NCBI GenBank assembly: GCA_017306025.1
Contig: JAFKJJ010000546.1
Coordinates: forward strand, 1 to 40,272
From: Planctomycetota bacterium
GTDB lineage: Bacteria; Planctomycetota; Planctomycetia; Gemmatales; Gemmataceae
Direction: 5' to 3'
DNA length: 40,272 nt
Both the position numbers and the translations under genes were made by a program. Each line of letters opens with the position of its first letter. Position 1 is the stretch's first letter. Shown piece after piece: positions 26,379 through 40,272 of the stretch. Under the pieces are notes generated by a model. That model had not been told where the DNA came from, searched no databases, and saw only the letters and a program-made list of their open reading frames with translations.

Positions 26379-27323
26379 TCAGTAACTCGGGACCACCTGA
26401 CCGTCGGCCGGATCGCCCAGGAGCGTCCAGGCGGTCGCGTCGATGCCGCTGCTGAGGCTCCGCACCGACCCGTCGCCGAACGAGACGTTGATTCCCCCGG
26501 CCGTGAACGCGTGGGCCACGTCCATGTTGCAGTTCTGCTGCGTGACCCCGGTCTGGAACTTCGTCCCGACCGACCGGCCGTTGAACATCGGGGCGTAGGA
26601 CGAGTCCCACCCGCCGTGGAACAGCAGGTCGGCGCGGTTCTGCGCCTCGCACACCATCAGCTTCTCGGCGAAGAACATCGTCTGCGAACTGCCGTCGGGG
26701 ATCGTGTCGATCTTGTAGCCGGTCCACCAGTACCGGGTTTCGGAGTACGGGTTATTGCGTCGCGCGAACACCTGGTAGTTGAACGCGTAGCTGGTCGCCG
26801 ACCAGTTCGTGTTCGCCCCGCCGCTGAGCCAACTGTAGGAGAGGGTGAAGTAGTCGCGCGGGCTGGGGTCGTGCGGCGCCTTGAACGTCTTCACCTGGGC
26901 CGTCCACACGTCGATGCCGCCGGCGTTGGAGAACAGTTGCTGCCCGTTGCCCGGCTTGTACAGCGCGTCCTGCTCCACGAACGGCATCAGGTGGTAGTAC
27001 AGGGTGACGTCGCCGGTGAGCGTCTTCCACGGGGTGTTGTTCCCGCCGTTCTGCCAGGCGCTGGCGCTGGCCCCCGGCTCGCCCTGGTGGTTCCACCACG
27101 GGTCCCACGCGTTGGGCAGGATGCCGCCGCGGGCGTCGGCCGCGGAGTGGACCGCCAGCGTGATCTGCTTCATGTTGTTCTGGCTGCTCATGCGTGCGGC
27201 GGCCTCGCGCACCTTCTGGACGGCCGGGAGCAGAAGACCGATGAGGATCGCGATAATCGCAATCACCACCAACAACTCGATGAGCGTGAAGCCCCGTGCG
27301 CGGAGGCGCGGAGAAGAGGACAT
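26379..27323 (-). CDS. DUF1559 pseudopilin-like protein
   Basis: A 314-residue protein. Its N-terminus has the type IV prepilin signal [20 protein letters not shown], with the expected Gly-Phe cleavage site and Glu5, followed by [16 protein letters not shown], the start of the DUF1559 family. Near the C-terminus is the family signature [20 protein letters not shown]1559 proteins are hugely expanded in planctomycetes; their export and assembly are thought to resemble type II secretion pseudopilins, but the function is unproven. The ATG (27321-27323) is at the usual distance. It lies 98 bases downstream of the DUF1501 gene, with a hairpin between. Confidence 0.93.
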
Positions 27324-34836: not shown

Positions 34837-35907
34837 TCAGTAGTCGCCACCCGCCACCTCCCCCCCATCGCGGGTGGACAGCGCCACCCACGTGTCCGGC
34901 CGAATGAACGTGGTGATGAACCGCACCGACCCGTCACCGAACAGCACGTTGCACCCGTTGCCGTGCTCGCCCCACATCTCGTCCGTGTGCCCGAACGGGT
35001 CGTTGGGCGCGTGGATGATGACCTGCGGGTGGTCGTGCGTGTCCGGCCCGCTGTGGACGCCCACGAGACACCCGGCGCCGTTGTTCTCCGACGGCCACGG
35101 CCGCATGTCGAGCCGGGGCGGGGTCACCGCGCCCGGCACGACGCCCACCCACGTCTTGTTGCTCAGGACCGAACTGTGTTCGCCGATGAACACCGTGTTC
35201 GACAGGCCGTCGGAGACCATCGCGACCGACACCTTCGAGTTCCGGTAGAACGGGCCGTCGATCCGGGCGGCCTTGCCGCCGTTCTCCGGGACGGGTTCCG
35301 GGGTGTCGTAGTCGTAGCAGTACGCGGTAGTGCGGCCCCACGGCTGGTGGATGCCGGCGTTGGTGACGTAGTGCGCGTGCGCGAACCGGATGCGGCTCCC
35401 GTCGCTCCGCGCCATCGGGGTGCCGTGCCGGACGTCCGCTCCCTCGCGCTCCACGTCGAACCCGTCGCTCCCGCCGGTCGCCGACGGGCAGAGGAACGCC
35501 GCCACGCGCGTCTGCACCGCGGCCGCGTTCGCCGGCGCCCAGCACGGCTCGTTCAGGTTGAACTGCCGGTACAGATTGTCTTGTTCCAGATGCGGCAGCA
35601 GGAAGACGCCCCACGCCCAACCGGGCGGACCGTTGCGGTACTCGTCGCCGTAGGCGATGCCGTAAGCCGAACCGTCGAGCGAAGTGCTCGTGGTGACGTA
35701 GGCGGGCGGAAACACCTTGTTCACGCCCTCGTAGTTGTGCAGTGCGAGGCCGATCTGTTTGAGGTTGTTCTGACACTTCAGGCGCGCCGCAGTCGAACGC
35801 ACCTTCTGCACGGCCGGTAGCAGCAATCCGATGAGGATGGCGATGATCGCGATCACCACCAACAACTCGATCAGCGTGAAACCGCTTCGGAATCGCAGCA
35901 CTTTCAT
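34837..35907 (-). CDS. DUF1559 pseudopilin-like protein
   Basis: A 356-residue protein. The prepilin signal [20 protein letters not shown] is at residues 8-27, followed by the family start [20 protein letters not shown] and LKQIGLALHNYEG. A DGLSNTVFIGEHS motif in the middle and NVLFGDGSVRFITTFI near the end are the standard DUF1559 signatures. The N-terminal helix should be processed by a prepilin peptidase and the rest exposed outside the membrane. ATG at 35905-35907. Upstream lies an AT-rich inverted repeat (35936-35971), likely a control site; downstream is a small membrane protein gene. Function is not established. Confidence 0.94.
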   Translation of the reverse strand: MKVLRFRSGFTLIELLVVIAIIAILIGLLLPAVQKVRSTAARLKCQNNLKQIGLALHNYEGVNKVFPPAYVTTSTSLDGSAYGIAYGDEYRNGPPGWAWGVFLLPHLEQDNLYRQFNLNEPCWAPANAAAVQTRVAAFLCPSATGGSDGFDVEREGADVRHGTPMARSDGSRIRFAHAHYVTNAGIHQPWGRTTAYCYDYDTPEPVPENGGKAARIDGPFYRNSKVSVAMVSDGLSNTVFIGEHSSVLSNKTWVGVVPGAVTPPRLDMRPWPSENNGAGCLVGVHSGPDTHDHPQVIIHAPNDPFGHTDEMWGEHGNGCNVLFGDGSVRFITTFIRPDTWVALSTRDGGEVAGGDY

Positions 35908-38296: not shown

Positions 38297-39028
38297 TCAG
38301 TCGTGCGCGGTCACGCCGACCTGCTGACACATCGTCAGTAACGGACAGGTCGAGCACTTCGGCCGGTCGCCGGTGCAGACGTGCTTGCCGAACGGCACCA
38401 ACAGCGCGTTGATCTCCACGCGGTAGCGCGTCGGCAGCTTCTCGTGGAGCTGCTCCATCGTCTTTTCCGGCGTCTTCGCGGCCACGTAGCCCCACCGGTT
38501 CGTGACCCGGTGAACGTGGACGTCCACACCGGTCACGAGCGTGCCGCAGGTGATGCCCAGCGCCAGGTGCGCGCACTTCGGGCCGACCCCCTTGAACGCC
38601 ATCAGCGCGTCCGCGTCGCACGGCAGCGTGCCGCCGTGCTTCTCGACCGTACCGACCGCGATGTCGCGGACGGTCTTCGCCTTCACGTCGTGGTAGGTGC
38701 AGGGGTAGATCAGCCGCTCGATCTGCTTCACCGACAGCGACGCGACCTCCGCCGGTGTGCGGGCCGCGGCGAACAGCCGGCGCGACGCCGGGAGCGTGAC
38801 CTCGTCGCGCGTGCGGATGGAAATGACGCACGCGACGAGGATCTCGAAGACGGAGGTGTGCCCCTCGCCGGCCAGTTCGAACAGGGCGGCCTTCGGGTAC
38901 GGTGCCACCGCTTCCCGAAGAAGTGACACCGCCTTCTCGATGTCGAACGGCTCCTTGCCGGGTCGGGTCGACCGCGCGGCGGGCGCCGGGGCCGCGGGCT
39001 TTTGGGGAGCTTTCTTTTTCGTCGCCAT
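38297..39028 (-). CDS. nth: Endonuclease III (DNA glycosylase/AP lyase)
   Basis: A 243-residue base-excision repair enzyme that removes oxidised pyrimidines and cleaves the abasic site. The helix-hairpin-helix has the catalytic Lys (MAFKGVGPKCAHLALG), the catalytic Asp is in GVDVHVHRVTNRWG, and the C-terminus carries the four-Cys iron-sulfur loop with 6-2-5 spacing (CTGDRPKCSTCPLLTMC). The ATG at 39026-39028 is preferred over an in-frame ATG 12 codons earlier because its N-terminal tail (ATKKKAPQKPAAP) is a plausible leader and nothing in the longer start is conserved. The usual LSAQTTD block is replaced by ISIRTRDEVT, a variation seen in some relatives. Its promoter faces the cobalamin riboswitch. 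Confidence 0.93.
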   Translation of the reverse strand: MATKKKAPQKPAAPAPAARSTRPGKEPFDIEKAVSLLREAVAPYPKAALFELAGEGHTSVFEILVACVISIRTRDEVTLPASRRLFAAARTPAEVASLSVKQIERLIYPCTYHDVKAKTVRDIAVGTVEKHGGTLPCDADALMAFKGVGPKCAHLALGITCGTLVTGVDVHVHRVTNRWGYVAAKTPEKTMEQLHEKLPTRYRVEINALLVPFGKHVCTGDRPKCSTCPLLTMCQQVGVTAHD

Positions 39029-39131
39029 CGGTCGCACCCTGAAGAACCAAAAGCACTTCCGCACCCGACGGGGAGCAAGTCGCGGGCCGCGCGTTGACGC
39101 GCGGACGGCGGCCGGTATGTTAGTGGTCGCT

Positions 39132-39302
39132 CGACGGGTTCCGTGACGGAAGGATCGTCACGGACGAAGAGGGAAGCCGGTGCGATTCCGGCGCAGGGCC
39201 GCTGCTGTGTTCGGCCAGAACCTCGGGTAACTGCCACTGCGCAAGCGCGGGAAGGCCGCCCGAAGTTCGTTACGAGCCGTGAGCCAGAAGACCTGCCCGT
39301 CG
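39132..39302 (+). promoter_or_regulatory. Cobalamin (adenosylcobalamin) riboswitch
   Basis: All parts of the B12 aptamer can be read. P1 is CGACGGG (39132-39138) with CCCGTCG (39296-39302). P2 is a perfect nine-bp hairpin (39140-39148 with 39156-39164). The core has GGGAAGCCGGTGCGATTCCG (39171-39190) then GCGCAGGGCCGCTGCTGT, followed by CCACTG (39234-39239), GGGAAGGC (39249-39256) and the B12 box AGCCAGAAGACCTGCC (39282-39297). It senses cobalamin and normally lowers expression of B12 uptake or synthesis genes when the vitamin is plentiful. It stands 148 bases before the GTG of a DUF1559 gene on the same strand. Confidence 0.95.
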
Positions 39303-39312
39303 GCACGTCCGT

Positions 39313-39343
39313 CGTTCGAGGCCCCGGCCTGGGCCGCCGAACG
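39313..39343 (+). promoter_or_regulatory. GC-rich hairpin in the riboswitch expression region
   Basis: CGTTCG (39313-39318) with CGAACG (39338-39343), and inside it GGCCC (39320-39324) with GGGCC (39331-39335), make an 11-bp interrupted stem just after P1. No T-run follows, so it is not a clear terminator; it may be part of the switching structure. Confidence 0.5.
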
Positions 39344-39418
39344 GGCCGGTCTTCACCTTGCGCCGCGCGTGCGGCCGCCGCCCCGTCCCAGCGCCACAGG
39401 TCCGCGGGTCCCGACCAC

Positions 39419-39436
39419 CTCACCCGACCCGGTGAG
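39419..39436 (+). promoter_or_regulatory. Small hairpin abutting the Shine-Dalgarno of the riboswitch-controlled gene
   Basis: CTCACC (39419-39424) pairs with GGTGAG (39431-39436) directly against the AAGGAG ribosome binding site (39437-39442), which is seven bases before the GTG start. It could help control access of ribosomes, as in translational riboswitches. This is inference. Confidence 0.45.
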
Positions 39437-39449
39437 AAGGAGCGAACCC

Positions 39450-40272
39450 GTGCGCGCCGCCTTGCACAAGCGTGGCTTCACGCTGATCGAGCTGTTGGTC
39501 GTGATCGCGATCATCGCCATTCTGATCGGGCTCCTGTTGCCCGCCGTCCAGAAGGTCCGCGAGGCCGCCTCCCGGGCGAAGGGCCAGAACAACATGCGGC
39601 AGCTCACCCTGGCCGCGATGAACTTCGAGTCCGCCAACGGGGTCCTGCCCCACGTCTACGAGCTCCAGACCCCGGACTTCCTCCAGGCCAAGTACCCGTT
39701 CGGCTACGCGACCTCGGACCCCTCCACCTTCAAGGTCGCGTCGGTGGACCCGAACCAGGGCATCCTGAGCCCCTACTACGAGGGGAACAACAAGATCAAC
39801 GTGTCCCCGAAGTTCGAGGCGAACCAGGCCTCCGTCTCCCTCGTCTTCCTGGGCGCGACGGGGGGCTACGCCTTCAACCGGAACTTGCTCGCGAGCCCCG
39901 CGAGCCCACAATCGTTCACGGTCAAGGCGCCGGTGAAGGGCCGGACCATCGCCACCATCGCCGCGACCTCCCAGACCTACATGTTCGCGGAGATCCTCCT
40001 GCTCAATTCGAGCGGGGGGCTGACGGAGCAAGGGTCCTGCATCTTCGGCTCGCCCCTGATCCCGAACGGCAGCAACACGCAGGCCACCGCCAGTTCGGGC
40101 GTCGTCTTCTCCCCGTTTTGGTGGAACGGCCTGACGATGGTCTCCTTCGTGGACGGCCACGTCGAGCTGCGCGGGCCGCTGGCGCCGGAGCCCCCGGTCG
40201 CCCCCTTCGCCCAGGCGACCTGGGACGCGGCCAAGACGACGTACAAGACCATCCAGCCCGGTTTCTTGCCCC
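39450..40272 (+). CDS. DUF1559 pseudopilin-like protein, 3' end missing, under a cobalamin riboswitch
   Basis: The gene begins with GTG (39450-39452), preceded by AAGGAG at seven bases, and runs off the right edge after 274 codons. The prepilin signal [20 protein letters not shown] (residues 7-26) and [20 protein letters not shown] are classic DUF1559. The middle contains a [20 protein letters not shown] segment and the C-terminal family signature [10 protein letters not shown] is visible, so most of the domain is present. Compared with the other two DUF1559 proteins in the window it is shorter before the signature. The riboswitch immediately upstream is the unusual feature: regulation by B12 points to a role in cobalamin uptake or in B12-dependent physiology. 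That link is inference; the products further downstream are not in the window. Confidence 0.93.

Follow-up and report, generated by a model that had tools for sequence, protein, structure and literature searches.

A cobalamin riboswitch precedes a DUF1559-type pseudopilin gene in planctomycetes: evidence for a probable role in B12 acquisition

Introduction

Why would a gene for a pilin-like protein stand behind a cobalamin riboswitch? The question is raised by a stretch of 40,272 nucleotides (here referred to as the window) from a planctomycete of the family Gemmataceae, which is one entire contig (C577, 40272 b) of an assembly of 707 contigs that is 82% complete. The gene encodes a DUF1559-type protein. 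An essential-gene study calls DUF1559 a large family of unknown function; in Planctopirus limnophila no paralogue group is larger, with 68 copies of which two are essential (PMC10632474). An older paper calls it a solute-binding protein family (PMC2754498). The genome to which the window belongs yields 138 DUF1559 matches. No paper linking DUF1559 or pilins to cobalamin riboswitches was found in the open-access literature searched.

The topic bears on the passage of nutrients through the planctomycete envelope, and a regulatory tag that is defined by its ligand provides a testable substrate for one DUF1559 branch. The best explanation, which we regard as likely, is that the riboswitch-controlled pseudopilin (Group I, see below) serves cobamide acquisition, i.e., that it would capture cobamide and hand it over to the inner membrane.

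The riboswitch and the pseudopilin gene in the window

An earlier note on this DNA had proposed a complete B12 aptamer upstream of a gene with a type IV prepilin signal. In a cmscan search of the window against Rfam 15, RF00174 is the sole over-threshold match (Table 1). All model positions are covered, the score lies well above the RF00174 gathering score of 31.5 bits, and the core and the B12 box are in place in the alignment (GCCACTG, GGGAAGGC and GAGCCAGAAGACCTGCC). The Infernal search hence bears out the presence of the full-length aptamer as a significant match, while its start had to be moved 13 bases upstream of where the note had put it. The riboswitch is flanked by a divergent HhH-GPD gene (38297-39064, minus strand) and the GTG-started pseudopilin gene, and it is the one RF00174 match found in its own genome.

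Table 1. Features of the riboswitch-pseudopilin locus, in window coordinates
Feature	Position	Strand	Basis
RF00174 cobalamin riboswitch aptamer, full length	39119..39314	+	cmscan 109.5 bits, E 9.9e-27, model 1-189
Candidate expression-platform hairpin directly 3′ of the aptamer (helix 1)	39314..39342	+	23-leader alignment
Conserved hairpin CTCACC...GGTGAG abutting the Shine-Dalgarno sequence (helix 2)	39419..39436	+	Stem ends at the Shine-Dalgarno sequence
Shine-Dalgarno AAGGAG	39437..39442	+	Sequence; seven bases to GTG
DUF1559-type pseudopilin gene, Group I, GTG start, 3′ end cut by the contig end	39450..40272	+	Prepilin signal, N_methyl, SBP_bac_10

The GTG is located 135 bases past the aptamer, and 274 residues of the translation are available in the window. 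The contig end cuts the gene, so that the downstream genes are unreadable in this genome; complete homologues in two other genomes (G016 and G002, 79% identical) extend about 10 residues beyond the cut. The prepilin signal that had been read from the sequence is corroborated by Pfam N_methyl (E 1.2e-8) and is of class III, RG/FTLIE, with E at +5 and a hydrophobic N-terminal helix spanning residues 12-63. The match to SBP_bac_10/DUF1559 (PF07596) reaches 34.9 bits versus a cut-off of 23.3, with an alignment limited to profile columns 1-40 of 268, which falls short of full length. The protein is therefore filed as a divergent DUF1559-type branch and not as a canonical member. Besides N_methyl and SBP_bac_10, the window protein has no Pfam match, and Plug and beta-barrel are absent. 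Against the Group I profile it scores 297.8 bits, being itself a row of that profile. The C-terminal H-X9-DG motif (TIGR04294), present in 14 of 37 Group I members, did not come up in the window protein, which is missing its last residues at the contig end. The protein also lacks the HFRH motif and both cysteines, of which its relatives keep one or both. Two more DUF1559 genes lie in the window on the minus strand (34837-35907 and 26379-27323), both with a nearly full-length PF07596 match.

AlphaFold2 models of the window protein (mean pLDDT 86, pTM 0.82, N-terminal helix 12-63) and of a relative heading an operon in genome G008 (pLDDT 88, pTM 0.81) both have a long helix at the N-terminus and a head that contains beta structure. 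Neither model gave a Foldseek match at E 0.001 or better. With VIA-align, the window model matched pilins weakly, at Z 5.3 or less with PilA4 on top. Neither a close solved structure nor a known B12-binding fold was matched, a result with which B12 binding would still be compatible. A sequence profile search led to the helices of Geopilin, PilA and GspG. The class III signal and the N-terminal helix are common to these proteins and the pseudopilin, which, unlike them, has a large ectodomain without a good match and is placed under a cobalamin riboswitch.

The leader and its possible mode of control

Two hairpins between the aptamer and the start codon are kept by compensatory change in the Group I leaders. 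Across 23 aligned leaders, 96.9% of the cells of helix 1 are paired, with changes on both sides in 5 of 10 pairs, and the corresponding values for helix 2 are 99.3% and 5 of 6. Taken together, the two hairpins have 97.8% of cells paired and both-side changes in 10 of 16 pairs; slid controls are 26.8-46% paired. Four of five covariation measures exceed all 500 shuffles, and the fifth, the number of further pair types, is as high in 171 of the 500. Folded as a single sequence, the window leader is no better than shuffles (z -0.57). A contact between the loop of hairpin 1 and a GGTCCG stretch that lies 5′ of hairpin 2 is not claimed, as it pairs in 13-19 of the 23 rows and the window copy is imperfect.

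The second hairpin ends at the Shine-Dalgarno sequence, which suggests translational control of the pilin. From the usual behavior of RF00174, we infer that cobamide would repress the gene.

Recurrence of the riboswitch-pilin pairing

RF00174 is present in 51 of 59 genomes (the window's own is one of the 59), where it has 88 matches in total. A prepilin gene follows 53 of these 88 riboswitches (51 identified by motif scan plus two more), and in all 53 loci it starts 31-413 bases past the aptamer with no called gene in between. The background is low: a prepilin motif is present near the start of 12 of 692 other called genes of the same regions (1.7%, with a few regions counted twice). The calls were made with a simple codon-score script that misses some genes, for example a DUF4465 gene behind riboswitch h35 that was seen by tblastn only. 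At least one linked pair occurs in 47 of the 51 riboswitch genomes, and in 17 of 17 riboswitch genomes of the window's genus.

The earlier note had named two outcomes that would speak against its idea: a pairing private to one genome, and downstream genes that account for the B12 control. The first is rejected, since the same pairing recurs across many planctomycetes, and the named genomes retrieved separately (see below) agree. As to the second, in 15 of the 53 linked loci, 12 of which belong to Group I, the next gene called lies on the other strand. Downstream genes cannot explain these 15 loci, where the pilin is the regulated product.

The other 35 riboswitches mostly precede recognizable genes of the B12 regulon, with Pfam confirming one example of each type. 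These targets are DUF6580 with a BtuF-like protein, NrdA/NrdB-like ribonucleotide reductase, cobalamin-independent methionine synthase, DUF4465, TonB receptors and a ChlI-like gene; a clear target was not seen behind some of the 35, e.g., h37 and h78.

A phylum-wide sample has RF00174 in 136 of 147 genomes. Among 68 of its riboswitches that were inspected, five are in class-mates (two with a pilin) and 63 outside the class, where a Group I-like pilin stands behind one, as the second gene (G125). First open reading frames, chosen heuristically, were obtained for 61 of these 63 regions (L168 has none long enough and the frame of L175 is apparently spurious). They match Plug (20 of 61), Peripla_BP_2 (BtuF-like; five), CbiM (three), DUF4465 (one) and several beta-propeller models, and N_methyl and DUF1559 are absent among the 25 families listed for them. 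A regular-expression match at L211 was discarded as a false positive. One locus within the window's genus (L061, G002:C1:1322683-1325401) has tandem riboswitch-pilin units with near-identical leaders and different Group I heads, as if leader and gene had been duplicated.

Two groups of riboswitch-linked pseudopilins

The ectodomains of the linked proteins, together with three from the phylum-wide sample, fall into two groups: Group I, with 41 proteins including the one in the window, and Group II, with 15. Of the Group I members, 37 were scanned, and every one has a PF07596 match with E no worse than 1e-3. When the Group I profile was run over the 59 genomes, with at most 42 candidates scored per genome, the matches listed comprise 39 full-length loci of at least 267 bits, seven at 224-247 bits and the rest at 171 bits or less, a distribution that sets the subfamily clearly apart. 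RF00174 is linked to 37 of the 39 top-tier loci listed, and most of these 37 are rows of the profile. The remaining two are a pilin in G029 with a sub-threshold AdoCbl-II match just upstream (35.0 bits, cut-off 36.5) and one on G032:C132, where no riboswitch match was found and the contig offers only 231 bases upstream. A further linked copy, on G032:C73, is split across two frames, scores as fragments and is outside the 39. A cobalamin riboswitch is absent at the seven middle-tier loci and at 11 lower ones examined; given the seven middle-tier relatives, the subfamily is not exclusively B12-regulated. Eight genomes are without RF00174, and among these only G029 has a top-tier Group I member. 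The AdoCbl-II (RF01689) match of G029 (L241, 1096-1154) takes the place of RF00174 and suggests a swap of riboswitch type. Short sub-cut-off matches to microRNA families in another genome (L246, G014), mostly on both strands, are likely inverted repeats and not microRNAs.

The association was also approached from the protein side. An ectodomain profile search of named genomes that was blind to riboswitches retrieved 45 loci, 42 of them with an in-frame prepilin motif (L281, L296 and L297 are without). Of the 42, 38 are preceded by a riboswitch signature or an RF00174 match, namely 34 by motif and four more by cmscan alone, three of which lie 430-658 bases before the prepilin motif; about ten of the retrieved contigs are shared with the 59-genome set, e.g., Zavarzinella formosa (L266) and Gemmata sp. 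IIL30 (L292). The motif matched 3 of 405 random stretches, and all 12 motif loci given to cmscan were confirmed. No riboswitch was found at four of the 42 loci (L276, L279, L302 and L305). As a control, 40 ordinary DUF1559 loci contained no over-threshold cobalamin riboswitch. Two retrieved loci labelled Candidatus Kuenenia stuttgartiensis (L298 and L299) have a Group I pilin and RF00174, and are possibly misassigned bins. In Limnoglobus roseus PX52 (L281), only the C-terminal Group I part is in frame and no riboswitch was found, so this copy may be broken.

Do all riboswitch-linked DUF1559 proteins form one clade, as the earlier note had asked? A quick IQ-TREE search with SH-aLRT support was run on 103 rows (35 Group I, six of the seven middle-tier, four of the 11 lower-tier and 13 of the 15 Group II proteins, plus 45 background paralogues, which were drawn from the best-scoring PF07596 matches and are therefore biased toward canonical members). 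Group I and the middle tier form one side of a branch with SH-aLRT 95. Group I shares the prepilin signal with the DUF1559/SBP_bac_10 (PF07596) paralogues, whereas its head is divergent and its branch is separate from the 45 sampled. Group II sits among ordinary DUF1559 paralogues and needs three label changes on the tree. A single clade is thus rejected: there are at least two lineages, and DUF1559 genes have come under cobalamin riboswitches at least twice.

Neighboring genes and the question of a structural role

In the fullest operon (G008), the pilin is followed by DUF6580, Peripla_BP_2 (BtuF-like), Diphthami_syn_2 (DUF71), CobT, CobS and His_Phos_1 (CobC-like). Another genome (G046) has a Group I pilin followed by Peripla_BP_2 and FecCD, and a separate Group II pilin followed by CobN. 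Genes of the B12 set occur on the same strand within 6 kb downstream in 26 of 92 regions, a count in which h69 rests on the unnamed c8 family alone, L288 is the contig of h23 and several queries come from these loci themselves. The B12 genes searched for were not found in the other 66 regions, some of which are ended by the contig. In the window's own genome, B12-binding domains give four matches and DUF6580 one; Peripla_BP_2 (BtuF-like) was not found in its 82% complete assembly.

In an alternative reading, the pseudopilin would support cobamide uptake as a building block of a filament or a secretion pseudopilus, or in the assembly of one, and another protein such as DUF4465 or BtuF would bind the cobamide. 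Its class III signal and pilin-type helix would suit such a part, every one of the 19 genomes searched has T2SSF platform proteins, and 8 of 15 Group II pilins have DUF4465 behind them (one of these with a PF14717 match at E 1.7e-50). DUF4465 (BtuJ) thereby shares the riboswitch-linked context of B12 acquisition, and a paper on this family reports that it binds B12 and has a jelly-roll fold (PMC13398666); by comparison, none of 37 Group I members matches PF14717. We regard a purely structural role as unlikely. DUF4465 is behind none of the Group I pilins among the downstream regions searched, 12 Group I loci have their next called gene on the opposite strand, and a single fixed subfamily has stayed under riboswitch control in spite of the many DUF1559 copies in the window's genome.

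TonB receptors and uptake

The TonB barrel model, which matched the E. coli, Caulobacter and Bacteroides controls, has no match in 19 genomes of the window's genus, and the plug model matches in one (G004, a 416 aa frame); a missed TonB receptor in the genus was rejected on these results. A linked pilin is present in all 37 riboswitch genomes that lack a barrel match and in 10 of the 14 that have one; the other four of the 14 are the only riboswitch genomes with no linked pilin (Fisher P 0.004, a statistic that ignores shared ancestry). BtuB (PF07715, PF00593) is likewise the first gene behind RF00174, both outside the class, as the Plug count above indicates, and in the class members G047 and G056, where the riboswitch leads directly into a TonB receptor. 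In contrast to BtuB, the pseudopilin has neither plug nor barrel, and it is found in a genus in which no TonB barrel was detected.

Pilins often mediate adhesion. A fibre subunit or adhesin could be made in B12 starvation for attachment to B12 producers or particles, with no part in B12 uptake. One paper, in which the term DUF1559 does not appear, describes dextran bound by fibres tied to the crateriform structures of planctomycetes (PMC5394234). The operons with DUF6580, BtuF-like, CobT, CobS, FecCD and CobN, however, point to uptake, as does the association with missing TonB barrels, and we consider this explanation quite improbable.

It is very improbable, in our view, that the solute handled by this subfamily is cobalt, or another one linked to corrinoids, and not cobamide. 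Riboswitches elsewhere in the phylum do precede CbiM cobalt transporters, and one Group II pilin precedes CobN, but the operon partners of Group I are genes of cobamide salvage and uptake.

Least probable of all is hitch-hiking, with the riboswitch serving downstream B12 genes or being coincidental and the pilin having no B12 role: some linked pilins do head B12 operons and DUF1559 genes are very common, but this explanation is disfavored by the enrichment of the pairing over background, its recurrence, the opposite-strand next genes, the recruitment of two separate DUF1559 lineages, the pilin kept behind a different cobalamin-clan match in G029 and the covarying hairpin at the pilin's own ribosome-binding site.

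A proposed route for cobamide

The recurrent pairing, the B12 uptake neighbors in some genomes and the frequent lack of the usual receptor suggest that the Group I pseudopilin probably helps these cells obtain B12. Group I would then be a cobamide-acquisition subfamily, mainly of the class Planctomycetia, and would probably act in the envelope as a capture component that replaces or complements BtuB. In this scenario, scarcity of cobamide would cause the riboswitch to switch on the dedicated pseudopilin, which would be exported and anchored via its N-terminal pilin helix. Of the possible mechanisms, direct B12 capture by the pseudopilin would be the likeliest: the C-terminal head would most likely capture cobamide at the outer envelope or beneath it and could pass it on to inner-membrane components, i.e., BtuF-like, DUF6580 and FecCD/BtuC-like proteins. 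With envelope capture and handover, the pseudopilin would fill the place held elsewhere by BtuB, propeller or DUF4465 proteins.

The earlier note had suggested a pseudopilin for cobalamin "in place of or beside a TonB system". Its acquisition role has gained strong comparative support, from the recurrence, the single subfamily, the shared B12 operons in some genomes, the barrel-free genus and Plug as the commonest first gene outside the class; binding, surface location and transport stand as predictions.

The regulatory tag also points to a way in which planctomycetes that have the riboswitch but no detectable TonB receptor could acquire B12. Should B12 binding hold true, the pseudopilin would represent a new kind of vitamin-capture protein and offer a route to decode other DUF1559 paralogues. 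A wider proposal is possible, if somewhat doubtful: cobamide acquisition would be pilin-based and TonB-independent, and the DUF1559 paralogues, which number from dozens to more than 100 per genome, would constitute a bank of solute-specific capture pseudopilins, the B12-switched ones being the first with an assigned substrate.

Other protein families at these loci

Membrane proteins of the DUF6580 family (PF20221) recur behind riboswitches or linked pilins (L103 and 13 further cluster 2 loci), often beside a BtuF-like gene, and DUF6580 is a probable component of cobamide uptake. Seven genomes of the window's genus encode a 209 aa protein behind a linked pilin (L093, L100, L107, L043, L046, L112 and L061); one copy matches a GDSL-type hydrolase model, and the L046 copy was called as two pieces. 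Finally, a secreted-looking family with no Pfam match, 'DDVDVWVGTGSNRAAFVVDW', follows cobalamin riboswitches or linked pilins at L094 (G007), L095 (G009), L035 (G012), L069 (G051), L156 (G067) and L157 (G125), and may be another B12-related surface protein.
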